NCBI GenBank assembly: GCA_903927605.1
Contig: CAIYNT010000217.1
Coordinates: 1-8,468, forward strand
Direction of reading: 5' to 3'
DNA length: 8,468 nucleotides
Origin: an uncultured Holophagaceae bacterium
GTDB lineage: Bacteria > Acidobacteriota > Holophagae > Holophagales > Holophagaceae
Below, piece by piece: positions 1-8,468 of the stretch. The position numbers and the translations under genes were made by a program. Every line of letters starts with the position of its first letter. Position 1 is the stretch's first letter. The notes beneath the pieces are model-generated. The model saw nothing but the letters and a program-made list of their open reading frames with translations. It searched no databases and was not told where the DNA came from.

Positions 1-9
1 GGAGGCCCC

Positions 10-477
10 ATGGGACGAAGTGTTCGAGCGCCGCTGCCAGTGGAAGTGGATGAGGTCAGGGCCAGGATCGAGCGGTGGCGTCAGCAGCGTAAATGCCTTG
101 GGCCGATGCCGGAGAAGCTCTGGGCCGAGGCGGCTGAACTGGCAGTACGTTTTGGCATGAGCCCCATCTGCCAAAACATGGGGTTGAGCTATGGCGCCCT
201 GAAAACCCGCATGGACAAGCACTCCAGTCAGCAGCACCCAGCGCCGAAGCCCCATCCGGAACAAACCCTGATCCACGCACTACCACCAAGGCCAAAGCCG
301 CAACCCATGGCGCCGACCTTCGTGGAACTCGGCGGCGATAGCCTGCTGGGCGGGATCCAGGCCGGGCCTGTGCTGGAGGTCAGTACTCCGGATGGCGTGC
401 GGGTGGTGCTCCGCCTTCCGACTGGAAGTTCCGTGGACCTGGCCAGCCTGATGACCGCCTTTCTCGGATGCCGGTGA
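10..477 (+). CDS. tnpA: IS66 accessory protein TnpA (HTH)
   Basis: A 155-residue protein of the IS66 TnpA type, the small helix-turn-helix accessory protein encoded first in IS66 elements and thought to help the transposase at the ends. Residues about 13-70 carry the family pattern: an arginine-rich helix (ARIERWRQQRK), then WAEAAELA and a helix-turn-helix ending in LSYGALKTRM. A proline-rich linker (about 75-100) follows, then a second conserved block with FVELGG and a C-terminal strand region ending in LASLMTAFLGCR. The start is well supported: GGAGG at positions 1-5 lies four bases before the ATG. The gene overlaps tnpB by a few bases, so the two are probably translationally coupled. Part of its coding sequence (337-370) recurs as a relic at 3045-3078. 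Confidence 0.85.
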   Translation: MGRSVRAPLPVEVDEVRARIERWRQQRKCLGPMPEKLWAEAAELAVRFGMSPICQNMGLSYGALKTRMDKHSSQQHPAPKPHPEQTLIHALPPRPKPQPMAPTFVELGGDSLLGGIQAGPVLEVSTPDGVRVVLRLPTGSSVDLASLMTAFLGCR

Positions 478-839
478 TGATTCAAATTTCCCCCCAGATG
501 AAAATCATGGTGGCCGTGGAGGCGGTCGATTTCCGCCGTGGGATCGATGGGTTGGCTCAACTCTGTCGCGTCACCCTGGGGGCCGATCCCTTCTCGGGCA
601 CGCTGTTCGTGTTCCGCAGCCGTTCGGGGGCATCCCTGCGCGTTTTGGCCCACGACGGCGGGGGCTACTGGCTATGTCAGAAGCGGCTATCGAGAGGTAG
701 GTTCCGCTGGTGGCCCACCAATCAGGATGAACCGTCCGCCCGGCTTCTCGCCCATGAACTCCAGATCCTGATTTGTGGTGGCGATCCTGGCGGCACCAGG
801 GTGCCTGCGGCATGGCGATCTGTGAGTCCACCAATGTGA
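468..839 (+). CDS. tnpB: IS66 accessory protein TnpB
   Basis: IS66 Orf2/TnpB family protein, about 120 residues, the normal length for the family. Visible family hallmarks are AVDFRRGIDGLAQL near residues 18-31 (the usual 'D-R-G-DGLA' block), DPFSGTLFVFRSR at about 39-51, then VLAHDGGGYWLCQKRLSRGRF, which corresponds to the WDGxGxxLxxKRLExGRF block. Its exact biochemical role is not established, but it is needed for transposition in IS66 elements that carry it. Two starts are possible. One is ATG at 468. The other is ATG at 477, which shares its A with the TGA stop of tnpA (TGATG) and would suit termination-reinitiation. The last 25 residues (ILICGGDPGGTRVPAAWRS) look like the family's usual tail, so I do not think the gene is frameshifted. 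Confidence 0.85.
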   Translation: MPVMIQISPQMKIMVAVEAVDFRRGIDGLAQLCRVTLGADPFSGTLFVFRSRSGASLRVLAHDGGGYWLCQKRLSRGRFRWWPTNQDEPSARLLAHELQILICGGDPGGTRVPAAWRSVSPPM

Positions 840-919
840 TACCTGGAAATGTAAATTATTGACAGTATTCGCCTTTTCTACGCTTGTACTAATCGACGAC
901 TTCGGGCACATTCTGAACG
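840..919 (+). promoter_or_regulatory. AT-rich spacer between tnpB and tnpC with a -35-like TTGACA
   Basis: Eighty bases separate tnpB from tnpC, and they are clearly more AT-rich than the genes either side. In many IS66 elements tnpB and tnpC are nearly contiguous, so the gap is unusual. A perfect TTGACA lies at 859-864, but I find no convincing -10 at 16-18 bp. The nearest candidate, TACTAA at 887-892, is 22 bp away. tnpC also lacks a clear Shine-Dalgarno upstream of its ATG at 920. A separate promoter for tnpC is therefore possible but unproven. Confidence 0.25.
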
Positions 920-2605
920 ATGGCACGCACCAAGCACCGAAAGAAAACCACACCACCATCTCCACGCCCAGATCTGCGGCACAAGGAGATCAGCGCCGAA
1001 GTGCTTCACGGCCATCTGGACCGTGCGCGGACAGTCCTTGGTGAGGAAGGCTATGAGGACCTCCGGACAGCGGTGGACACCCTGGCCTTCGTGAACCAGG
1101 AACTGGAATCGAAGCGAACTTCCATTCAGCGGCTGAAGTTCATGATGTTTGGTCCCAAGACGGAATCCACGGCGGCGGTGTGCGGAAAGGCCCCATACCA
1201 GGATCCCCCGAAACCCAGCCAGGCAGGTTCCTCCGAGGCACCCACGGATCAGAACCAGGAACCGCAGCAACCGACGGAGCAGCGGCCAAAGGAGAAGGCC
1301 CCAGGACATGGGCGGAATGGCGCCAGGAACTACCCCGGCGCGGATCGCGTGAAGGTGACACGGACGGGGATGGAGAGCGGTGCCCCGTGCCCGGAATGCC
1401 CCAACGGGAAGGTCTACCTCCAGAGTGAGCCTGCCACCCTGGTGCGCGTGAAGGGTGTGGCCCCGTTCGCGGCCAGGGTCTACGAACTGGAGCGGTGGCG
1501 CTGCAACCTGTGCGGTGAAGTTTTCACAGCTCCGGCACCTGATGGGGTCGGCTCGGAGAAGTACGACGAGACGGTGGCTGCCATGCTTGGAATGCTCAGG
1601 TATGGTTCGGGACTCCCCATGCACCGGATTGAAAAGCTCCAGCAGGGCTTTCGGATCCCCCTGCCAGTCTCGACCCAGTGGGAAATCCTGCTGGAGGCCG
1701 CTGGGCTCCTGCTGCCCGCCCACGAGGAACTAGCCAGGCAGGCCGCCCAGGGCGAGGTCATTCACAACGACGACACCACCATGCGGATCCTGGGTGGGAC
1801 CACGAATCGGAAGGAAGGGCGGAAGGGCACCTACACCACCGCCATCCTCTCCAACCATGGAGAGCACCGCATCGCCCTCTACATCACGGGCCACAACCAC
1901 GCGGGAGAGAACCTGGAGGTTGTCCTCCGGCACCGTGCGGAGGGCCTTGGCGCTCCCATCCAGATGTCCGATGCCCTCGCTGCAAACAGCGTGGGCGAGG
2001 CCGGGGAACTGAACACCATCCTGGCCCACTGCCTGGCCCATGCCCGGCGGCGGTTCGTGGAGGTGGAGGAGCGGTTCCCTGACGAGGTCCGGCACCTCCT
2101 GGAGTCCTTGAAGGCGGTCTACACGAACGACGCCCGAGCCAAGAAGGAAGGCATGGACCCGCCTACCAGGCTGGCCTTTCACCAGCAGGGGAGTGGACCC
2201 GTTATGAAGGCTCTCGAAACCTGGCTCAGGGATCAGATCGAGGAGCGGAAGGTGGAGCCCAATTCAGGGCTGGGCCAGGCCATCACCTACATGCGGAAGC
2301 ACTGGAAGGAACTGACGCTGTTCCTGCGTGAGCCTATGGCGCCACTGGATAACTCGATCTGCGAGCGGGTGATCAAGCGGGCCATCATGCACCGGAAGAA
2401 TTCCCTATTCTACAAGACCGAGACCGGCGCCAGGACTGGGGATGCCTTCATGAGCCTCATCCACACCGCGGAATTGAATGGCGCTCAGCCCTTCGACTAC
2501 TTGGTTGCCCTCCAGCGGAACCATGCCCTGGTGGAGGAAAACCCAGGGGAATGGATGCCTTGGAACTACCTGGACACCCTGGCGGGACTTGCTCTGGCTT
2601 CGTAA
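920..2605 (+). CDS. tnpC: IS66 family transposase TnpC (DDE)
   Basis: A full-length, 561-residue IS66 transposase that cuts and joins the element's ends. Domains in order: an N-terminal helical leucine-zipper-like region (about 25-75) leading into RLKFMMFGPKTES, the family's 'RLRRMLFGRxSE' signature; a charged, proline-rich linker (about 90-140); a zinc-binding domain with Cys157/Cys160 (CPEC) and Cys195/Cys198 (CNLC); and the DDE core. Likely catalytic residues are Asp284 in HNDDTTM, Asp351 in QMSDALAAN and Glu482 in NSICERVIKRA, followed by HRKNSLF. The C-terminal IS66 motif (SLIHTAELNGAQPFDYL) is intact. The start is the first ATG after an in-frame TGA at 914-916. No strong Shine-Dalgarno is visible, so a downstream start cannot be excluded. 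Confidence 0.95.
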   Translation: MARTKHRKKTTPPSPRPDLRHKEISAEVLHGHLDRARTVLGEEGYEDLRTAVDTLAFVNQELESKRTSIQRLKFMMFGPKTESTAAVCGKAPYQDPPKPSQAGSSEAPTDQNQEPQQPTEQRPKEKAPGHGRNGARNYPGADRVKVTRTGMESGAPCPECPNGKVYLQSEPATLVRVKGVAPFAARVYELERWRCNLCGEVFTAPAPDGVGSEKYDETVAAMLGMLRYGSGLPMHRIEKLQQGFRIPLPVSTQWEILLEAAGLLLPAHEELARQAAQGEVIHNDDTTMRILGGTTNRKEGRKGTYTTAILSNHGEHRIALYITGHNHAGENLEVVLRHRAEGLGAPIQMSDALAANSVGEAGELNTILAHCLAHARRRFVEVEERFPDEVRHLLESLKAVYTNDARAKKEGMDPPTRLAFHQQGSGPVMKALETWLRDQIEERKVEPNSGLGQAITYMRKHWKELTLFLREPMAPLDNSICERVIKRAIMHRKNSLFYKTETGARTGDAFMSLIHTAELNGAQPFDYLVALQRNHALVEENPGEWMPWNYLDTLAGLALAS

Positions 2606-2680
2606 GTCCCAGATGTGGATCAGTCGTGACAGACCAGTCAGTCATGTGCCGAATCATCCCTGTGTGCGCCGAAAGGACAC

Positions 2681-3049
2681 GAACTAACCAGCCGTGGCGT
2701 CAAGGTGACCTTCATAAAAGAGTCCATGACCTTCACGGGGGAGGACAGCCCCATGTCCACCTTGATGCTCAGCATGATGGGAGCCTTTGCCGAGTTCGAG
2801 CGCAGCATCATCCTGGAAAGGCAACGCGAAGGGATTGCTCTGGCGAAGGGAAGAGGTGTCTACAAGGGGCGGAAGCCATGCCTATCACCTGAGCAAGCGG
2901 AACAAGTGCGTCAGAGGGTTCAGGTCGGAGAGTCGAAGGCTGATCTCGCCAGGGCCTTCTCCGTCAGCCGAGAGACGATCTATGCGTATCTCCGGCTTGG
3001 TCCAGACGAGAAGAGCCATTCAAAAACAGAGCCAGGAGCCGCAGGATAG
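2681..3049 (+). pseudogene. Serine resolvase/invertase, C-terminal fragment
   Basis: The C-terminal half of a small serine recombinase of the Tn3-resolvase/invertase kind. Homology starts abruptly at GAACTAACC (reading ELTSRGVKVTF) and continues through FTGEDSPMSTLMLSMMGAFAEFERS, the long E-helix region with ERQREGIALAKGRGVYKGRKP. It ends with a DNA-binding helix-turn-helix (LSPEQAEQVRQR, then KADLARAFSVSRETIYAYLR). The N-terminal catalytic domain, with the nucleophilic serine and the arginine cluster, is absent. The open frame continues upstream into IS66 end sequence with no resolvase similarity. The likely explanation is that IS66 inserted into the gene. A GTG at 2705 could start a short product, but it would be catalytically dead. 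Its TAG stop (3047-3049) falls inside the tnpA-like relic. Confidence 0.85.
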
Positions 3050-3078
3050 CCTGCTGCGCGGGATCCAGTTCGGGCCTG
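3045..3078 (+). repeat. 34-bp relic of an IS66 tnpA gene
   Basis: This stretch matches 337-370 inside tnpA of the neighbouring IS66 at 31 of 34 positions, with mismatches at three bases and no gaps. In the corresponding frame it reads DSLLRGIQFGP against DSLLGGIQAGP in TnpA. Similarity ends sharply on both sides. It is best read as a leftover of a related, not identical, IS66 element, or of a recombination event involving one. The resolvase stop codon lies inside it. Confidence 0.7.
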
Positions 3079-3133
3079 GTGATTCTGCTGCACCAGAGGG
3101 CAGCCGGGAATCTTTTATCTACCCAAATGGTAT

Positions 3134-4537
3134 ATGCTGGGCTTACTCTCCTGGATCGGTCAATCTATGCACGAAAAGACCCAGTCTCCTTTCGCCTCCC
3201 TCAACAGGGAAGAACTGATCGTCCGCGCCGAACAAGGGGCCGCAGTATTGGTGGAGGCGATCAAAGAGCTTGCCTTTGAGAACGAGGAGAAGGCAAAGCG
3301 GGCAGCCGAGTTGGAACTTGCCAACAAGGAGCTTGCCTTTCAGAACGAAGAGAAGGTAAAGCGGGCAGCGGAGTTGGAACTTGCCAACAAGGAGCTTGCC
3401 TTTCAGAACGAAGAGAACACCAAGCTCCATGAACGTTTGTTTCAAGCTGAAAAATTGGAAAGCCTTGGACTCTTGGCTGGGGGAGTCGCCCACGATATGA
3501 ACAACGTGCTGGGGGCCATCCTTGGGCTCTCTTCAGCCATGCAAAATTTCCAAGTGGTGGATAGCCCAGCTTGGCGTGCCTTCGACACCATCGAAAAGGC
3601 CGCCACCCGTGGCGGGAAGCTGGTCCAAAGCCTATTGGTCTTTACTCGGAACAGCCTTCCAGAAGAAAGGGTCTTGAATCTGAACGAGATCCTTCAAGAG
3701 GAAGTTCGGATTTTGGCCCACACCACGCTATCCCATGTTCGCCTCACGCTGGACATGGACTCTGAGTTGCGACCAATCCGCGGTGATGGCGCTGCCTTGA
3801 CCCACGCAATCATGAACCTCTGCGTTAACGCCGTAGATGCCATGCCCGAAGATGGCACCCTGACGCTCAGAACTCGAAACATCGACAACGCTTGGATTGA
3901 AGTGGTGGTGGAGGATACGGGGAGTGGGATGTCGAAAGAGGTTCTCAAAAGGGCCTTTGATCCCTTCTTCACCACGAAAGAGGTTGGAAAGGGGACGGGA
4001 CTGGGCCTGTCGGTGGTCAACCGCACCGTGAAGGCTCACCAAGGACAGTTGGAAATTCAGAGTGAACCGGGTCATGGGACACGAGTGGGCATCAGGTTCC
4101 CGGCCTGTGAACATTCGCCATACCTCGGGGAAACTACCGCTGAACCTCGACCAGAGTCCTCCCCTTATGCACTGAGCGTGCTTCTGGTCGACGACGATGA
4201 ACTGATCCAGAGTTCAATGCAGGCGATCCTGGAATTGCTTGGCCACAGCGTTACTGTCGCCTCCAGCGGTGAAGAAGCCCTGTCGAAACTTGCAACCGAT
4301 TTCCAACCCGATGTGGTGATTTTGGACCTGAATATGCCTGGCCTTGGAGGCAGAGGAACCTTGCCACGCCTTCGCGCTTTGCGTCCTACCCTCCCATTGA
4401 TTCTCTCTACGGGTCAAATTGACCAAGTCGCCATTGATCTTTCGAGAGCGCACCCCCACGTCACCTTGCTCCCAAAGCCCTTCAGCACTAGGGATCTTCA
4501 GGAGAAGCTCGCTGTGCTCACCACTCCAAAAGGATAG
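3134..4537 (+). CDS. Soluble hybrid histidine kinase with C-terminal receiver domain
   Basis: A 467-residue hybrid sensor kinase. Residues about 25-108 form a charged coiled coil built of a 21-residue repeat (ELAFQNEEKxKRAAELELANK). The HisKA domain follows, with phospho-acceptor His120 in LAGGVAHDMNNVLGAI. The HATPase shows the N box (NLCVNAVDAM, 229-237), G1 (VEDTGSGM, 259-266), F box (FDPFFTTK) and G2 (GKGTGLGLSVV). The receiver domain (about 347-460) has the acidic pocket Asp353-355, phospho-acceptor Asp398 (ILDLNMPG), Thr426 and Lys448 (LLPKPF). There is no transmembrane segment and no PAS or other recognised sensor, so signal input is unknown, perhaps through a partner or the coiled coil. 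The frame is closed by TGA at 3080-3082, so it does not extend into an upstream sensor. The start is uncertain: ATG 3134 has no Shine-Dalgarno, and ATG 3167 (MHEKTQ) would fit an extended -10-like TGGTATATG at 3128-3136. The receiver may act in phosphorelay or in feedback on the kinase. Confidence 0.92.
   Translation: MLGLLSWIGQSMHEKTQSPFASLNREELIVRAEQGAAVLVEAIKELAFENEEKAKRAAELELANKELAFQNEEKVKRAAELELANKELAFQNEENTKLHERLFQAEKLESLGLLAGGVAHDMNNVLGAILGLSSAMQNFQVVDSPAWRAFDTIEKAATRGGKLVQSLLVFTRNSLPEERVLNLNEILQEEVRILAHTTLSHVRLTLDMDSELRPIRGDGAALTHAIMNLCVNAVDAMPEDGTLTLRTRNIDNAWIEVVVEDTGSGMSKEVLKRAFDPFFTTKEVGKGTGLGLSVVNRTVKAHQGQLEIQSEPGHGTRVGIRFPACEHSPYLGETTAEPRPESSPYALSVLLVDDDELIQSSMQAILELLGHSVTVASSGEEALSKLATDFQPDVVILDLNMPGLGGRGTLPRLRALRPTLPLILSTGQIDQVAIDLSRAHPHVTLLPKPFSTRDLQEKLAVLTTPKG
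3266..3417 (+). repeat. 63-bp tandem repeat encoding a coiled coil
   Basis: Two full 63-bp units (3266-3328 and 3329-3391) are followed by a partial third (3392-3417). The second unit differs from the first at only a few positions. Each encodes the 21-residue unit starting ELAF and ending ANK. Similar ELAFQNEEKEKRAAEL-type repeats are common in bacterial kinases and diguanylate cyclases. The high DNA identity suggests recent duplication and possible copy-number variation. Confidence 0.9.
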
Positions 4538-4538
4538 G

Positions 4539-4697
4539 ATGTCGTCCCTGCCCCTTGCCTATGCCCCAGAGCGGAAATGCATATTCATCAAGGCTCAACA
4601 ATCCCTGGTATCAATGCCAGCATTTACGGGCATCCCCAAAAATCCAGTAATAGGTGAGCTTAGGATTCCAAATAGCAGTACAGTGGAACTGCGATAA
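4539..4697 (+). CDS. Possible 52-residue protein just after the kinase
   Basis: An ATG at 4539 lies one base after the kinase stop (TAG 4535-4537) and opens a 52-codon frame to 4697. AAAAGGA at 4528-4534 could act as a ribosome site, so translation could be coupled to the kinase. The predicted peptide (MSSLPLAYAPERKCIF...) has no family I recognise, no hydrophobic segment and no repeat. It may simply be a chance frame. The rest of the gap to 4759 holds only short inverted repeats, such as CGCT-TCGG-AGCG, and no convincing terminator. Confidence 0.2.
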   Translation: MSSLPLAYAPERKCIFIKAQQSLVSMPAFTGIPKNPVIGELRIPNSSTVELR

Positions 4698-4759
4698 GCA
4701 CCTTACGCTTCGGAGCGCGAGGGGAAGGCCGAAAAGCCAGCCCTGCCCACGGAGCGTTT

Positions 4760-4890
4760 ATGAGCAGCAACCTCAACATCTTCATGAATATGAATTGTAT
4801 TAAAGAGCTTGAGGTGTTTCATGAAGGCTTTGCCGGGTTGATCCGCATTGCCAAGCAGCAGGGGTCTACCCCAGGAGAGATCGAATATTC
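4760..4890 (+). pseudogene. 5' fragment of an unknown gene interrupted by the IS3 element
   Basis: ATG at 4760 is preceded by GGAG (4751-4754) at five bases and opens a frame whose first 44 residues lie outside the IS. They begin MSSNLNIFMNMNCIKELEVF and end near PGEIEYS, after which the frame enters the left end of the insertion sequence. The onward frame through the IS is an artefact: it happens to be the frame of the IS3 orfB. I do not recognise the 44 residues. No continuation of the gene is seen right of the IS at 6262, so the remainder seems to have been lost rather than merely displaced. Confidence 0.45.
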
Positions 4891-4914
4891 CGTCCCCCTC
4901 AGAGGTTGGACAGG
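4891..4914 (+). repeat. Left terminal inverted repeat of the IS3 element
   Basis: It pairs with 6239-6261 with about five differences, including a one-base gap. The shared core is GTCCCCC near the tip and TTGGACA inside. The first base is C rather than the T typical of IS3 ends (TG...CA), so this end may be mutated or the true tip may differ by a base or two. Confidence 0.7.
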
Positions 4915-4944
4915 CAATAAGGAGCCGAGAAGGATGATTTCCAG

Positions 4945-5003
4945 CCGCCAGGGTGCGCAGCGAAGGGAGGCCGTAGGCCGACCGAAGCGGAGCACCCTGG
5001 CGG
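4945..5003 (+). promoter_or_regulatory. 12-bp perfect inverted repeat in the IS3 leader
   Basis: CCGCCAGGGTGC at 4945-4956 is the exact reverse complement of GCACCCTGGCGG at 4992-5003, with a 35-base loop. The flanks AGCC (4943-4946 region) and GGCT (5007-5010) can add pairs. It lies between the left IS end and orfA, upstream of the orfA ribosome site. IS elements often carry such structures, which reduce translation of transcripts reading in from outside. That function is inferred here. Confidence 0.5.
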
Positions 5004-5045
5004 GTCGGCTCTGGAGGGATCAGGCTGCTTCCCAGGAGAAGCACG

Positions 5046-5378
5046 ATGTCCCAACCCCAACCCGCAGAAGGAGAGGTCCAGCGATGGACGGCCAAGCGAA
5101 AGGCCGCCGTGGTTCTGGATCTGGTCCGAGGCAAGATCACCCCGGCCGATGCAGCCCGCCAGCATGGGCTGACCGTGGCAGAGATCGAACAATGGAAGGA
5201 GGACTTCCTCGCTCAGGGCACGGAGGCCCTGCGAAGCCATCCACGGGACCGAGAGGCCCAGTGGGAGGCGGAGAAGCAGCGCCTTCACGCCAAGATCGGC
5301 GAGTTGGCCTTGGAGGTCGACGTTCTAAAAAAAGTTCACCGCATTCTCGGCAAGGACTTGCCGGACGGGATCTCGTGA
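5046..5378 (+). CDS. IS3 OrfA, helix-turn-helix DNA-binding protein
   Basis: A 110-residue OrfA of an IS3-family element. It binds the terminal inverted repeats and, when produced alone, usually restrains transposition. The N-terminal part (about 13-60) matches the family's HTH: RWTAKRKAAVVLDLVRGK, then PADAARQHGLTVAEIEQWKE and FLAQGTEALRS. The C-terminal part (about 68-98) is a heptad-rich coiled coil (KQRLHAKIGELALEVDVLKK) that continues into the OrfAB fusion. The start is supported by AGGAGA at 5034-5039, six bases before ATG. The stop at 5376-5378 lies inside the frameshift stem. Confidence 0.9.
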   Translation: MSQPQPAEGEVQRWTAKRKAAVVLDLVRGKITPADAARQHGLTVAEIEQWKEDFLAQGTEALRSHPRDREAQWEAEKQRLHAKIGELALEVDVLKKVHRILGKDLPDGIS

Positions 5379-5386
5379 ATGCGGTG
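5327..5386 (+). promoter_or_regulatory. Programmed -1 frameshift site with nested stimulatory stem
   Basis: In the orfA frame the sequence reads CTA AAA AAA GTT, giving the slippery heptamer A AAA AAA at 5327-5333. Three bases downstream begins a perfect 10-bp stem: CACCGCATTC (5337-5346) pairs with GAATGCGGTG (5377-5386). Inside its loop a second perfect stem forms, CGGCAAG (5348-5354) with CTTGCCG (5357-5363). The orfA stop codon (5376-5378) straddles the base of the outer stem. Slipping back one base joins OrfA to the long frame ending at 6226. This is the classic way IS3 elements make the OrfAB transposase. The 3-base spacer is shorter than the usual 5-9. Confidence 0.85.
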
Positions 5387-6226
5387 CGGTGCAATGTGCT
5401 GGAGGCGGGGATGGAGATCCCGATGACCCGCCTCTGCCGGATCCTGGGCGTACCCCGGTCCACGGCCTACCACCAGCCCAAGGTTGAGCGCATGCACCGC
5501 CCGGTGGACGAGGCTCTGGCCCGGACCATCCACGAGATAATTCAGGCCCATCCGACCTACGGCATTCGCCGCGTATGGGCCTGGTTGAAGCATCGTCTGG
5601 ACCAGCCCACCAACCGCAAAAAGATCCACCGCCTCATGCGGATCAAGGGCTGGACCATGCGCCAGCGGGCCATTGGTAAGCGCCCGAGGGTGCCTGGGTC
5701 CAGATCTATTGCCCCAGAACCCAATCAGCGCTGGTGCACGGATATCGCCCTCATCGAGTGCGGCAAGGATGGGTGGTGCGCGTTTGTTCCCGTCCTCGAT
5801 TGCTGCACCCGCGAGGTGTTGGGCTGGTGCCTCGACCTCACCGGCCGAGCTCAAACTGCCGAGCGTGCCCTGGAGGAGGCCCTGATCCACCGGTTTGGCT
5901 GGACTCACGGCGCCCCCAAAGGGCTCACCCTGCGCCATGACAACGGCCTGGTATTCGGCTCACGGCTCTACCGAGCCCTGGCCCGCGACTACGGCCTGAA
6001 GCAGGAATACATCACGCCCTACACGCCACAACAGAACGGCCTCTGCGAGCGGTTCAATCGCTCCTTCAAAGAGGAATGCGCTTGGCTTCACCGGTTCCAG
6101 GACATTCAAGAGGCTCGCGCCGAGGTCGCCCGCTACATCGATCACTACAACCACGAGCGCCCTCATCAGTCGCTCGAATACCGAACGCCCCACCAGGCGT
6201 TCCTCAACCCCAAACCCGCAGCCTGA
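5333..6226 (+). CDS. IS3 transposase OrfB (catalytic part of the OrfAB fusion)
   Basis: The DDE integrase-like part of the IS3 transposase, expressed as OrfAB through the -1 frameshift at 5333. The fusion would be about 393 residues (96 from orfA plus 297). A helix-turn-helix region (HTH_21 type: HEIIQAHPTYGIRRVWAWLK, then NRKKIHRLMRIKGW) precedes the rve catalytic core. Catalytic residues are Asp in RWCTDIAL (codon 5741), Asp in LRHDNGLVF (codon 5939) and Glu in QQNGLCERFNRSF (codon 6047), giving the D(35)E spacing typical of the family. The C-terminal YNHERPHQSLEYRTPHQAF motif is intact. The same frame stays open upstream to 4760, but that part only shadows orfA. No good independent start is seen near the junction. 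Confidence 0.93.
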   Translation, partial: SSPHSRQGLAGRDLVNAVRCNVLEAGMEIPMTRLCRILGVPRSTAYHQPKVERMHRPVDEALARTIHEIIQAHPTYGIRRVWAWLKHRLDQPTNRKKIHRLMRIKGWTMRQRAIGKRPRVPGSRSIAPEPNQRWCTDIALIECGKDGWCAFVPVLDCCTREVLGWCLDLTGRAQTAERALEEALIHRFGWTHGAPKGLTLRHDNGLVFGSRLYRALARDYGLKQEYITPYTPQQNGLCERFNRSFKEECAWLHRFQDIQEARAEVARYIDHYNHERPHQSLEYRTPHQAFLNPKPAA

Positions 6227-6238
6227 ATAAGCCTCGAA

Positions 6239-6261
6239 CTTGTCCAACTATCGGGGGGACA
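6239..6261 (-). repeat. Right terminal inverted repeat of the IS3 element
   Basis: Read on the minus strand from 6261 it starts TGTCCCCCCGATAGTTGGAC, with the TG tip expected of IS3-family ends. It begins 12 bases after the orfB stop. The sequence beyond it (from 6262) becomes abruptly AT-rich. Confidence 0.8.
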
Positions 6262-6307
6262 CTACAACGAAGGGTAAAAAAGTAACAAAAAATCAATAAA
6301 TTCTATC

Positions 6308-6333
6308 AAAAAGACCTCTAATGAGGTCTTTTT
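6308..6333. terminator. Bidirectional rho-independent terminator
   Basis: A perfect 11-bp stem, AAAAAGACCTC (6308-6318) and GAGGTCTTTTT (6323-6333), with loop TAAT. The A run on one side and T run on the other let it end transcripts in both directions. It stands just downstream of the minus-strand gene at 6365-6556 and also downstream of the IS3 transposase on the plus strand. It could insulate the right-hand genes from IS readthrough. Confidence 0.9.
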
Positions 6334-6364
6334 ATTTGTACTTATCAATTATATGATATGCTAT

Positions 6365-6556
6365 TTAATTGCCAATTTTGTCTAGCCCATACAATTTGGT
6401 TATGTAATCCTCACGCTCTTTGCGCTCTGATGTGGACTCTGGACCTACAAGAGCAACCAGTTCAGCTGCGAATACCGGGTCATACTCAGGGCTACGTGGA
6501 TCAATATAACGAAACATTGCTTCAGCCAGTTTTGCTTCTTCTTCCTTAGAAGTCAT
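6365..6556 (-). CDS. Small acidic hypothetical protein (63 residues)
   Basis: Not a family I recognise. The protein is highly charged (MTSKEEEAKLAEAMFRYIDP, later ESTSERKEREDYITKLYG), has no membrane segment or cysteine, and is probably helical and cytoplasmic. Three features support it as a real gene. On the minus strand AGGAGAG stands eight bases before the ATG. The stop is followed within about 30 bases by a strong terminator. The frame has no competing plus-strand gene of comparable support. Its low GC and strong Shine-Dalgarno differ from the IS elements to the left. Small acidic proteins of this kind occur on phages and plasmids, but no role can be assigned. Confidence 0.65.
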   Translation of the reverse strand: MTSKEEEAKLAEAMFRYIDPRSPEYDPVFAAELVALVGPESTSERKEREDYITKLYGLDKIGN

Positions 6557-6775
6557 GCGGATACTCTCCTGTTAGGTCCACTCGGCGGCGGGACGATACC
6601 GGTCATTACTTGGGGGCTTTGTATTTCAGGTGGCCCACGGCACCCTCACCGATAATCTACTAACCGGAAGTCTCCTTTATCCCCAAGAGATACTGTCTCA
6701 ATTGAAATTTCCATAGCCTGGGCTGCGGGGCTGGCTATCGAGCCAGATGAGGACGAAACAGCCTAAGGAGTAGGT

Positions 6776-6817
6776 ATGGCCCCGGCAGTGGGATCCCCGG
6801 CCTGCATTTCTTGCTGA
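6776..6817 (+). CDS. Possible 13-residue leader peptide
   Basis: ATG at 6776 follows a strong Shine-Dalgarno (AAGGAG, 6765-6770) by five bases and encodes MAPAVGSPACISC before TGA (6815-6817). Its stop overlaps the 3' arm of a potential long-range stem (6817-6824). A short frame with so good a ribosome site inside pairing sequence suggests a leader peptide or attenuator, but only the arrangement supports this, and chance is possible. The promoter suggested at 6856-6886 lies downstream, so a separate upstream promoter would be needed. Confidence 0.25.
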   Translation: MAPAVGSPACISC

Positions 6818-6855
6818 GCCCCGCTTGGTCTCTCCAAGACCCGGATGAAGCTATA

Positions 6856-6902
6856 TCGACAGATTGCCGTACCTATAGCCTATACTTTTTTTAGGTAACC
6901 TA
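6856..6902 (+). promoter_or_regulatory. Possible promoter and small palindrome before the TIGR04255 gene
   Basis: TATACT at 6881-6886 is close to a consensus -10. TCGACA at 6856-6861 matches the -35 consensus at five of six positions, but with a long 19-bp spacer. Just after the -10 lies the palindrome TAGGT-A-ACCTA (6892-6902), which could be an operator over the start of transcription. The ATG follows at 6910, with only a weak ribosome site (TAGAG). Confidence 0.4.
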
Positions 6903-6909
6903 GAGTCCC

Positions 6910-7650
6910 ATGCCAACACATCCTTCCTACTCACGTGCACCGATCACTGAGGCAATCCTAGACATCCGGGTTCAACCGCTCGGATTGGATCTTGAGGCCC
7001 TCAAGGCACTGGGAGGAAGAACGCCTGTTTTCACAACAACAAAGATAATGAACGAAATTCACGGGCAAATGAAATTTCACGAAGACCCTTCAACTGCCCC
7101 TGAGGCTTCTGCGACAACAGAACCAGCGGGATTTGTTTTCATTTCCCCGGACCAAAGACGGCTCTGGCAGGCCCGACTGAACGGATTTACATTGAGTCAC
7201 TTGGCCCCGTACAAGAGTTGGGGAGAATTAAAAACTGAAGCCATTCAGCTTTGGTCAATTTTTAAAGAAGCAACAAAACCGACAATCACTAGAATTGCAG
7301 TACGTTATGTAAATAGATTTGATTTACCTGGTGGAAAACTTGATTTTGCGGATTATTTTGAAACAGTTCCAAAAATTCCAACTCAACTTGATACCGGCCT
7401 TAGCGGCTATTTTATGCAATTGCTCATTCCCCAGCCGATTGTTGCGGGAATGGTTATTATTAATCAAGCACTTGTACCCCCAGTGAATCCGGGCACTATA
7501 GCTGTAGTTCTTGACATTGATCTTTTCTGTGAGGGTAAAGTACCCCAGAATGACGATGAGATGTGGATTGCTTTTGAGGCGCTTCACAACCGGAAAAACG
7601 AAATCTTCGAAGCATGCATTTCTGATGCAGCTAGGGAGTTGATCCGTTGA
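6910..7650 (+). CDS. TIGR04255 family protein (function unknown)
   Basis: A 246-residue cytoplasmic protein of the sporadically distributed TIGR04255 family. Family features include the N-terminal PITEAILDIRV strand, the central block RLNGFTLSHLAPYKSWGEL (about residues 96-114), ITRIAVRYVNRFDLP (about 137-151), the AVVLDIDLF strand (about 197-205), and the C-terminal helix with EALHNRKNEIFEACISDAARELI. Length is normal (about 250). There is no signal peptide, membrane segment or obvious catalytic motif. It is the first of three tightly packed genes: its TGA (7648-7650) overlaps the TTG start of the next. The family's biochemical role is not known to me. Its lower GC than the IS genes and its position beside mobile elements suggest horizontal acquisition. 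Confidence 0.85.
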   Translation: MPTHPSYSRAPITEAILDIRVQPLGLDLEALKALGGRTPVFTTTKIMNEIHGQMKFHEDPSTAPEASATTEPAGFVFISPDQRRLWQARLNGFTLSHLAPYKSWGELKTEAIQLWSIFKEATKPTITRIAVRYVNRFDLPGGKLDFADYFETVPKIPTQLDTGLSGYFMQLLIPQPIVAGMVIINQALVPPVNPGTIAVVLDIDLFCEGKVPQNDDEMWIAFEALHNRKNEIFEACISDAARELIR

Positions 7651-7940
7651 AACTTGCGATCGCATTGGCCACTGCACCAACCCTGTTTCTACCGATTCCA
7701 GTTAGCGCCTCAAGTCGTGGCCTCGGCAGTGAATCCAGGGCTGTAGCCTCAATTTCATTTGAGGCCCAAATGCACCGAGCTCTCTTGGGAAGCGAAGTGC
7801 TTCGCAAGACTACCGAATCAGAAGATAATTTCGAATATTTCAGCCCCCGTTTGATTTCAACCAAGACGATCAAAGCAAAGATTCGCTTACTCGGTAAAAT
7901 TAAGCCAAAGCCCTATGTCTTTGAAGATGACGAAACCTGA
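7647..7940 (+). CDS. Small conserved-looking protein of the TIGR04255 cassette (97 residues)
   Basis: Starts at TTG (7647), which overlaps the preceding stop as TTGA. The start is well supported by AGGGAG at 7633-7638, eight bases upstream. The N-terminal 25 residues are alanine- and proline-rich and mildly hydrophobic (LAIALATAPTLFLPIPVSAS), which could be mistaken for a signal peptide but lacks a basic stretch beyond one Lys. The C-terminal third is basic (KTIKAKIRLLGKIKPKPY) and ends in an acidic tail (VFEDDET). I recognise no named domain. Its stop (7938-7940) overlaps the next ATG by one base. Translational coupling on both sides suggests it works in fixed ratio with its neighbours. Confidence 0.7.
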   Translation: MKLAIALATAPTLFLPIPVSASSRGLGSESRAVASISFEAQMHRALLGSEVLRKTTESEDNFEYFSPRLISTKTIKAKIRLLGKIKPKPYVFEDDET

Positions 7941-8468
7941 TGGTTGTTCTCGATCCATCAGCCCGCCTTGCGGCTGACCCAAATTTTTATTGGGAGCAGG
8001 TGACTGATCCCAATAGCTTGTCACAGGGTGATCACCTAATTAATTGCATGGTTCCACTTTATGGTGAGACCTTTGGTGAAAGTCCCGAAGAAGAAATTGA
8101 CATTCCCGTCGTAGAGATGGATCTGATTGTTGTTACCCAAGCGTGTGATCTAGAACAGAACAAAGTTGATCATGTCGCTCTATGCCCTATCTACTCTCGT
8201 GCTGAGTTTGAACTGAATTCGCCAGGGTCGAAAATTCAATGGGAACAAGTGCGTAAGGGGATGAGGGAGGGCCTTTGCCTTCTTGGATCTCAAACCGACC
8301 CGGCTGACAACCAGTCAACCCTCGTCGTTGACTTTAGACAGATCATTTCTCTACCCATTTCCTATTTGAAGGGCCACGCAACGGAACGCGTCAATGATTT
8401 TGAGACAGGTAGTGGCCTGAGTTATCGCTCCGACCCACCCGCTGCGGAGAGCCGCCGGGGCCATGGAC
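7940..8468 (+). CDS. Third cassette protein with TQxCDL motif, 3' end outside the window
   Basis: The ATG at 7940 shares its A with the preceding TGA (TGATG). The frame then stays open for 176 codons to the window edge. It begins MVVLDPSARLAADPNFYWEQ, continues through SQGDHLINCMVPLYGE and an acidic segment, and contains EMDLIVVTQACDLEQNKVDHVALCPIY, a strand-turn block with the TQ-x-CDL motif that I associate with uncharacterised accessory proteins. The cysteine in this motif may be functional, but this is inference. From about 8420 the reading (SYRSDPPAAESRRGHG) is GC-rich and loses the character of the rest, so the true C-terminus may be altered by a frameshift or a junction near the window end. 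It has no membrane segment. Confidence 0.7.
   Translation, partial: MVVLDPSARLAADPNFYWEQVTDPNSLSQGDHLINCMVPLYGETFGESPEEEIDIPVVEMDLIVVTQACDLEQNKVDHVALCPIYSRAEFELNSPGSKIQWEQVRKGMREGLCLLGSQTDPADNQSTLVVDFRQIISLPISYLKGHATERVNDFETGSGLSYRSDPPAAESRRGHG

Follow-up and report, generated by a model that had tools for sequence, protein, structure and literature searches.

At the right-hand end of the stretch analysed here (the window: 8,468 nucleotides of contig CAIYNT010000217.1, assembly GCA_903927605.1, from an uncultured Holophagaceae bacterium), three open frames follow one another on the forward strand, the last of them running from 7940 to the window end in the list of open reading frames (ORFs). 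These frames, hereafter genes 1, 2 and 3 (Table 1), had been described in an initial annotation, made from the letters alone, as a coupled cassette around a protein of the TIGR04255 family. The details of that description were borne out: TTGA (7647-7650) joins genes 1 and 2, TGATG (7938-7942) joins genes 2 and 3, and the TTG start of gene 2 lies 8 nt downstream of a good Shine-Dalgarno sequence, AGGGAG. Gene 1 scored 120.2 bits against a TIGR04255 cut-off of 30 in NCBIfam, with a match spanning residues 7-245 of 246, and the region is lower in GC content, as claimed (0.464 for 6240-8381 and 0.598 for 1-6240). A PADLOC 2.0.0 scan of all three proteins at E ≤ 1 returned no family. At the same threshold, genes 2 and 3 had no match in NCBIfam, PADLOC or PHROGs, and their sole Pfam match was a sub-threshold one of DUF488 on gene 3.

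Table 1 Features of the three-gene locus in the window (AF2, AlphaFold2; pLDDT, predicted local distance difference test)
Feature	Coordinates	Strand	Basis
Gene 1, TIGR04255 family protein, 246 aa	6910..7650	+	NCBIfam 1.3e-34, 120.2 bits; AF2 pLDDT 94.7
Shine-Dalgarno AGGGAG of gene 2, within gene 1	7633..7638	+	Sequence
Gene 2, antitoxin-like, 97 aa; 4-nt overlap with gene 1, 1-nt overlap with gene 3	7647..7940	+	ORF; tail match 32.9 bits
Conserved C-terminal tail of gene 2, ~36 residues; proposed toxin-binding segment	7830..7937	+	Alignment of 61 tails
Gene 3 remnant, predicted MazF/CcdB-fold protein, first 147 codons	7940..8381	+	27 relatives; model of P0001; gene-3 alignment
End of multi-copy repeat (mobile element) interrupting gene 3; frame reads into repeat	8382..8468	+	Copies in relatives; unrelated left flanks; P0028-P0030

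One point needs correcting. Gene 3, described as a TQxCDL protein, is not intact; it is an interrupted copy, cut at 8381/8382 by a repeat and deprived of its C-terminal part, and an uninterrupted sister protein, P0001, exists. From 8382 onwards the sequence is one that genomes of the window's genus and family carry in several copies, at 82-100% identity, and the 25 bases to the left of the repeat, compared by eye, are unrelated among the window and the three relatives checked. P0001 (185 aa) equals the window's gene 3 over residues 1-148 and then continues into the conserved C-terminus of the family; since residue 148 of the window protein spans the junction, only the first 147 codons are native. 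Three further database proteins (P0028-P0030) carry the same read-through peptide and match within the repeat only. Given this interruption by a mobile element, the window's copy of the trio should be inert. In another locus (L212), a copy of the repeat stands beside ORFs that by eye resemble a TniB-type ATPase and a TniQ-like protein, and the element may belong to a transposon kind bearing these genes.

We therefore turned to P0001 and to the remaining relatives of gene 3, of which 27 (P0001-P0027) were found at E ≤ 1e-3; the other three listed matches hit the repeat. The model of P0001 (pLDDT 90.5) predicts a MazF/CcdB toxin fold, and the fold matches listed for it are nearly all toxins of toxin-antitoxin (TA) systems. 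A PDB sequence search with gene 3 gave one match, at chance level (0.84). Judging from the gene-3 alignment (which omits nine of the 80 loci introduced below, namely L019, L023, L037, L053, L056, L065, L072, L079 and L082, some of them frame-broken, as well as P0014, P0025 and P0028-P0030), the invariant residues include Q29, G30, Q67, C69, D70, R153, E162, Q166 and R170 in P0001 numbering, and the remnant in the window keeps the invariant QGD-type and TQ-CD motifs. The earlier statement that the sequence shows no nuclease or toxin active site has to be revised, both for this predicted fold and because TIGR04255 genes elsewhere precede recognised toxins (see below).

Recurrence of the trio was assessed from both sides. 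Scanning genome contigs with P0001 gave 137 confirmed stretches, of which the best 80 were kept; these come from Planctomycetota, Acidobacteria, Methanosarcinales, Asgard archaea, Armatimonadetes, Cyanobacteria and others. A profile built from database TIGR04255 proteins only recognised the family immediately before gene 3 in 18 of the 80 loci, and a wider profile did so in 41; three more loci break off no further than 160 nt from gene 3, and the other 36 have no TIGR04255. As 16 of the 23 added loci had supplied their upstream ORFs to the wider profile, a count by that profile alone is partly circular, and these 23 were rechecked with the NCBI TIGR04255 model, comparing the places of its matches by hand. 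It exceeded its cut-off at the expected place in 21 (in L028 in two pieces), fell below it in L066, which is cut by the contig end, found nothing in L035, and matched at none of 12 loci judged negative. In all, 39 of the 41 trio loci are supported by models not trained on them. Coupling recurs as well. A middle ORF was recovered in 35 of the 41 trio loci, and the other six were dropped (starts are those of the longest ORF). Among these 35, genes 1 and 2 overlap in 32, the junction of genes 2 and 3 is an overlap in 13, an abutment in 2 and a gap within 30 nt in the others, and both junctions overlap or abut in 13. The packing of the trio is not due to chance, and the proposal that it reflects a joint function gains from the same two neighbours recurring in several bacterial phyla and in archaea. 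Seen from the side of TIGR04255, gene 3 is an uncommon partner: only 3 of 40 Acidobacteriota loci have a clear gene-3 relative (L117, L147 and L154), and in a further 6 the resemblance is weak (E 3e-5 to 4e-3). The gene-3 family itself occurs in 5 of 396 Acidobacteriota genomes. In five gene-3 loci (L029, L036, L037, L064 and L074), a second family of ~220 aa occupies the TIGR04255 position and is an alternative third component.

Sequence search at E ≤ 0.01 with gene 2 found only gene 2 itself, and its relatives were located by their position next to gene 3. These middle proteins have in common a C-terminal tail of ~36-45 residues (alignment of 61 tails; 20 of the 80 loci contribute none, 13 for lack of a recovered middle ORF and 7 because the ORFs were wrong by eye). 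Against a profile of the 60 other tails, the window's tail scored 32.9 bits, the best of 200 shuffles reaching 3.0, which makes gene 2 look like a real gene. In composition the tail runs from a basic, strand-like stretch through K-P to an acidic end. The N-terminal part varies: some loci lacking TIGR04255 show a weak likeness to VapB (L011) or to DUF7557 (L058 and L069) in this part, and in L039 the tail forms a fusion with a TPR-like protein. A recurring N-region scored above 5 bits, with the scored locus left out of the profile, in 17 of 36 loci with TIGR04255 versus 1 of 27 without. Read most simply, the tail would be the part that goes with gene 3, and the N-region the part that goes with TIGR04255. 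A middle-type ORF is also present in 27 of the 36 gene-3 loci without TIGR04255, a few of the 27 being doubtful and five others having been set aside by eye.

The TIGR04255 family comprised 473 proteins at E ≤ 1e-3, the window's included. The predicted fold of gene 1 consists of two beta/alpha repeats, a beta-alpha-beta4-alpha half followed by a similar one; in a PDB sequence search the protein had one match, at chance level (0.54). The sporadic distribution noted at the outset was confirmed and fits an accessory module: of 396 Acidobacteriota genomes, 38 have a TIGR04255 match at E ≤ 1e-3, 34 of them with a score above the cut-off. To examine its neighbourhoods, 40 of the 45 matched Acidobacteriota places were fetched with flanks, 37 of which had usable downstream sequence and 3 had none. 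The next ORF overlaps TIGR04255 or starts no more than 10 nt away in 24 of the 37. TIGR04255 is thus found in tight cassettes but is not tied to one pair of partners, most of the 40 loci having other partners or none that we recognised.

Some of these partners are established toxins. In L141, from the window's own genus, TIGR04255 is followed by a 95-aa protein and a canonical MazF (PemK 5.8e-19); the C-terminal tail of the 95-aa protein weakly matched five plasmid places (E 0.1-3), and both of the two that were checked are MazE-type genes adjoining MazF. PIN toxins lie downstream in L125 and L146 (1.7e-11 and 7.1e-8), and on a Vibrio plasmid the order is TIGR04255, hypothetical protein, zeta toxin. 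As last genes of TIGR04255 operons, the MazF, PIN and zeta partners exceed their Pfam cut-offs, while the HEPN-like (L120 and L130) and HicA-like (L137) partners are below curated cut-offs. From the 87 partner ORFs, 21 that seemed spurious or lay too far away were removed; in the remaining 66, Pfam at E ≤ 0.01 returned HTH_3 four times, the Xre-like antitoxin helix-turn-helix (HTH) domain three times, PemK and PIN twice each, and zeta and HEPN once each, the HEPN match and the PemK match of L136 (0.0061) being below curated cut-offs. Partner classes beyond these matches were judged by eye. In six loci (L119, L121-L123, L133 and L142), TIGR04255 is followed by a middle protein with an HTH or HTH-like region, and most of them add a larger protein with a T/S-Q/H-x-CD motif; an Acinetobacter plasmid shows the same order. 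Since TIGR04255 stands before several quite different toxins, a general job for it is suggested. The middle protein of L141 had no match in a PDB sequence search, that of L125 had unconvincing ones (the best, at 4e-5, to designed armadillo repeats), and a VapB-type tail suspected by eye on the latter had no match in plasmids. Eight further loci (L128, L135, L143-L145, L150, L152 and L153) have look-alike small proteins downstream of TIGR04255, possibly unrecognised effectors; the one from L143 had no Pfam match at E ≤ 0.1. On a plasmid of Rhizobium sp. CB3060 (L188), the TIGR04255 operon adjoins multiubiquitin, ThiF and DUF6527 genes.

Taken together, recurrence, coupling and partner diversity, with the predicted fold of gene 3, lead us to consider the trio probably a tripartite TA-like operon, in which gene 3 would be the effector, gene 2 the antitoxin and TIGR04255 a shared third component that most likely supports the antitoxin. 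Gene 3 would be toxic, its predicted MazF/CcdB-like scaffold carrying invariant residues unlike those of canonical MazF. The domain swapping seen in the middle proteins suggests how neutralisation might be arranged, the C-terminal tail of gene 2 clasping gene 3 and its N-terminal part engaging gene 1. TIGR04255, perhaps chaperone-like and used with many unrelated toxins, would then most likely keep the antitoxin active and protected, much as a chaperone does in toxin-antitoxin-chaperone (TAC) modules, and its loss or diversion would free the toxin. The coupled order, TIGR04255, antitoxin, toxin, would have the guards made ahead of the toxin. A bolder version, which we hold tentatively and at rather less than even chance, is that TIGR04255 is a universal, non-SecB, two-repeat third TA component. 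It would license the antitoxins of a range of effectors, at least the MazF, MazF-like, PIN, zeta and HEPN types, and would be the trigger that frees these effectors, for instance when captured by a phage product.

Several known systems resemble parts of this arrangement. Like MazEF/PemIK (PF02452), the trio places a small antitoxin-like gene, whose C-terminal tail is conserved, before an overlapping gene of the same predicted fold, and the L141 trio unites TIGR04255, a MazE-like-tailed protein and MazF; a small gene directly before and coupled to gene 3 is also in keeping with type II TA systems generally. Unlike MazEF, the trio begins with an additional gene, gene 2 has no AbrB match, and gene 3 is larger (~175-185 aa in near relatives), has no match to PF02452 and differs in its invariant residues. 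The closest logic is that of TAC, including CmdTAC, which shares the three-gene design and perhaps an antitoxin segment that tracks the third protein. According to PMC5105189, the TAC chaperone recognises a short stretch of the antitoxin that independent antitoxins lack, and this segment, ChAD, is C-terminal, whereas the variable segment of gene 2 is N-terminal. TIGR04255 further differs in being encoded first and, at the level of sequence, in that none of 72 members matched a Pfam SecB model at E ≤ 1. PanAT (Panacea, DUF4065) similarly combines one family with several unrelated toxin families, but PanA is the antitoxin of a two-gene system, while the trio has a separate antitoxin-like gene and DUF4065 was found in none of the window proteins, the 72 TIGR04255 members or the 66 partner ORFs (E ≤ 0.01). 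Omega-epsilon-zeta likewise has a separate third gene, and a zeta toxin follows TIGR04255 on the Vibrio plasmid; omega, however, is a small ribbon-helix-helix protein that acts as a DNA-binding regulator, and TIGR04255 a 246-aa two-repeat protein. Three-component TA ideas have been put forward before, with other proteins, as parts of PMC2701414 indicate.

A number of observations weigh against the tripartite reading. For gene 3, a Pfam scan of 96 family members at E ≤ 1 found no match to a MazF, PemK or CcdB model, the sole toxin-named match being Tox-GHH in one member (0.084), and profile-profile comparison with a PemK set was not significant (P 0.72). Canonical MazF has a catalytic Arg and Thr. 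In the (non-significant) hhalign register neither is invariant in the gene-3 alignment, and with no evident counterpart of these residues gene 3 may not be a nuclease. Nor does gene 3 always need TIGR04255, as the 36 of 80 loci without it attest. The window's own gene 2 scored only 0.3 bits in the N-region test, the signal comes mainly from one related group, and L030 has the N-region yet lacks TIGR04255 in both locus and genome; for these reasons the link between N-region and TIGR04255 is suggestive. The idea that the N-region binds a chaperone through hydrophobic residues found no support (p 0.27). Chaperones, SecB among them, are absent from the fold matches listed for the TIGR04255 model, an absence that excludes nothing.

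The lack of PemK matches and of evident canonical catalytic residues, together with an invariant residue set that suggests a different chemistry, could also mean that gene 3 has the MazF fold without being a toxin and that the three proteins form a complex with a different regulatory or enzymatic role. We regard this as unlikely, because TIGR04255 precedes unmistakable toxins elsewhere and the listed fold matches of gene 3 are nearly all TA toxins. A similarly low probability attaches to TIGR04255 being the DNA-binding regulator of the operon: its two-fold repeat resembles a TBP-type fold, and it would replace the DNA-binding domain missing from middle proteins such as that of L141, the part played by omega in omega-epsilon-zeta. 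Least likely, to our minds quite improbable, is that TIGR04255 is itself a promiscuous antitoxin that gene 2 merely adapts to each toxin. Its occurrence with MazF, PIN, zeta and, weakly, HEPN partners does resemble the PanA pattern as part of PMC8832971 presents it, but the middle proteins bear toxin-matched tails (MazE-like with MazF, a common one with the gene-3 family), and most gene-3 loci without TIGR04255 keep a middle-type ORF.

The trio might also serve in phage defence, with TIGR04255 as the sensor that responds to infection by releasing the MazF-like effector, in the manner of CmdC; in CmdTAC, PMC11618068 reports, the chaperone is drawn out of the complex by a phage capsid protein. 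This we find rather unlikely, if less so than the alternatives above. The sporadic distribution of TIGR04255 and the multiubiquitin/ThiF genes beside it on the Rhizobium plasmid speak for it. So do some neighbours of TIGR04255 (88 ORFs in 20 loci), for which the PADLOC families listed (25 of 80) include type I restriction proteins, mad2 and DUF3780, but matched control stretches on the same contigs (126 ORFs in 20 stretches) also matched PADLOC families (among the 25 of 65 listed, PDC-S02, PD-T4-6, mad6 and a CARF regulator), and enrichment is not shown. Moreover, tblastn with P0001 found no match at E ≤ 0.01 among 50,697 phage records and none at E ≤ 1e-5 among 72,556 plasmid records, and an IMG/VR scan gave three loci.

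Mobile elements also occur elsewhere in the window. An IS66-type element occupies 10-2605, with a DDE_Tnp_IS66 transposase at 920-2605 (Pfam) and two ORFs (10-477 and 468-839) that we take to be the usual accessory ORFs of such an element; it is followed by the C-terminal part of a serine recombinase with an HTH domain, apparently a fragment (2705-3049), and by a hybrid histidine kinase with a receiver domain and an internal repeat around 3262-3417 (3134-4537). About 90 bases between a minus-strand ORF (6365-6556) and gene 1 (6572-6666) recur with 77-86% identity in two genomes of the genus (G048 and G046), possibly as another repeat or a recombination site. The assembly of this genome matches the window only up to 5384, at the transposase ORFs of 5046-6226, so the genomic place of the trio is given by the window contig alone; searches of the assembly for TIGR04255 and P0001 found no match, and the histidine kinase gene has an out-of-register match there (94.6% over 93 bases).

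TIGR04255 has hitherto been a family number with the tag 'sporad', and a search of open-licence PMC full texts found no paper that names it. The trio would be a three-part TA-like system with a previously unassigned third family and a predicted MazF-fold effector, gene 3 pointing to an effector family missed by current Pfam models. As the constant first gene of varied TA-like operons, TIGR04255 offers a testable role for many 'hypothetical' genes, and it may be that, in addition to SecB-type TAC modules, there is another way for an added protein to control unrelated toxins.
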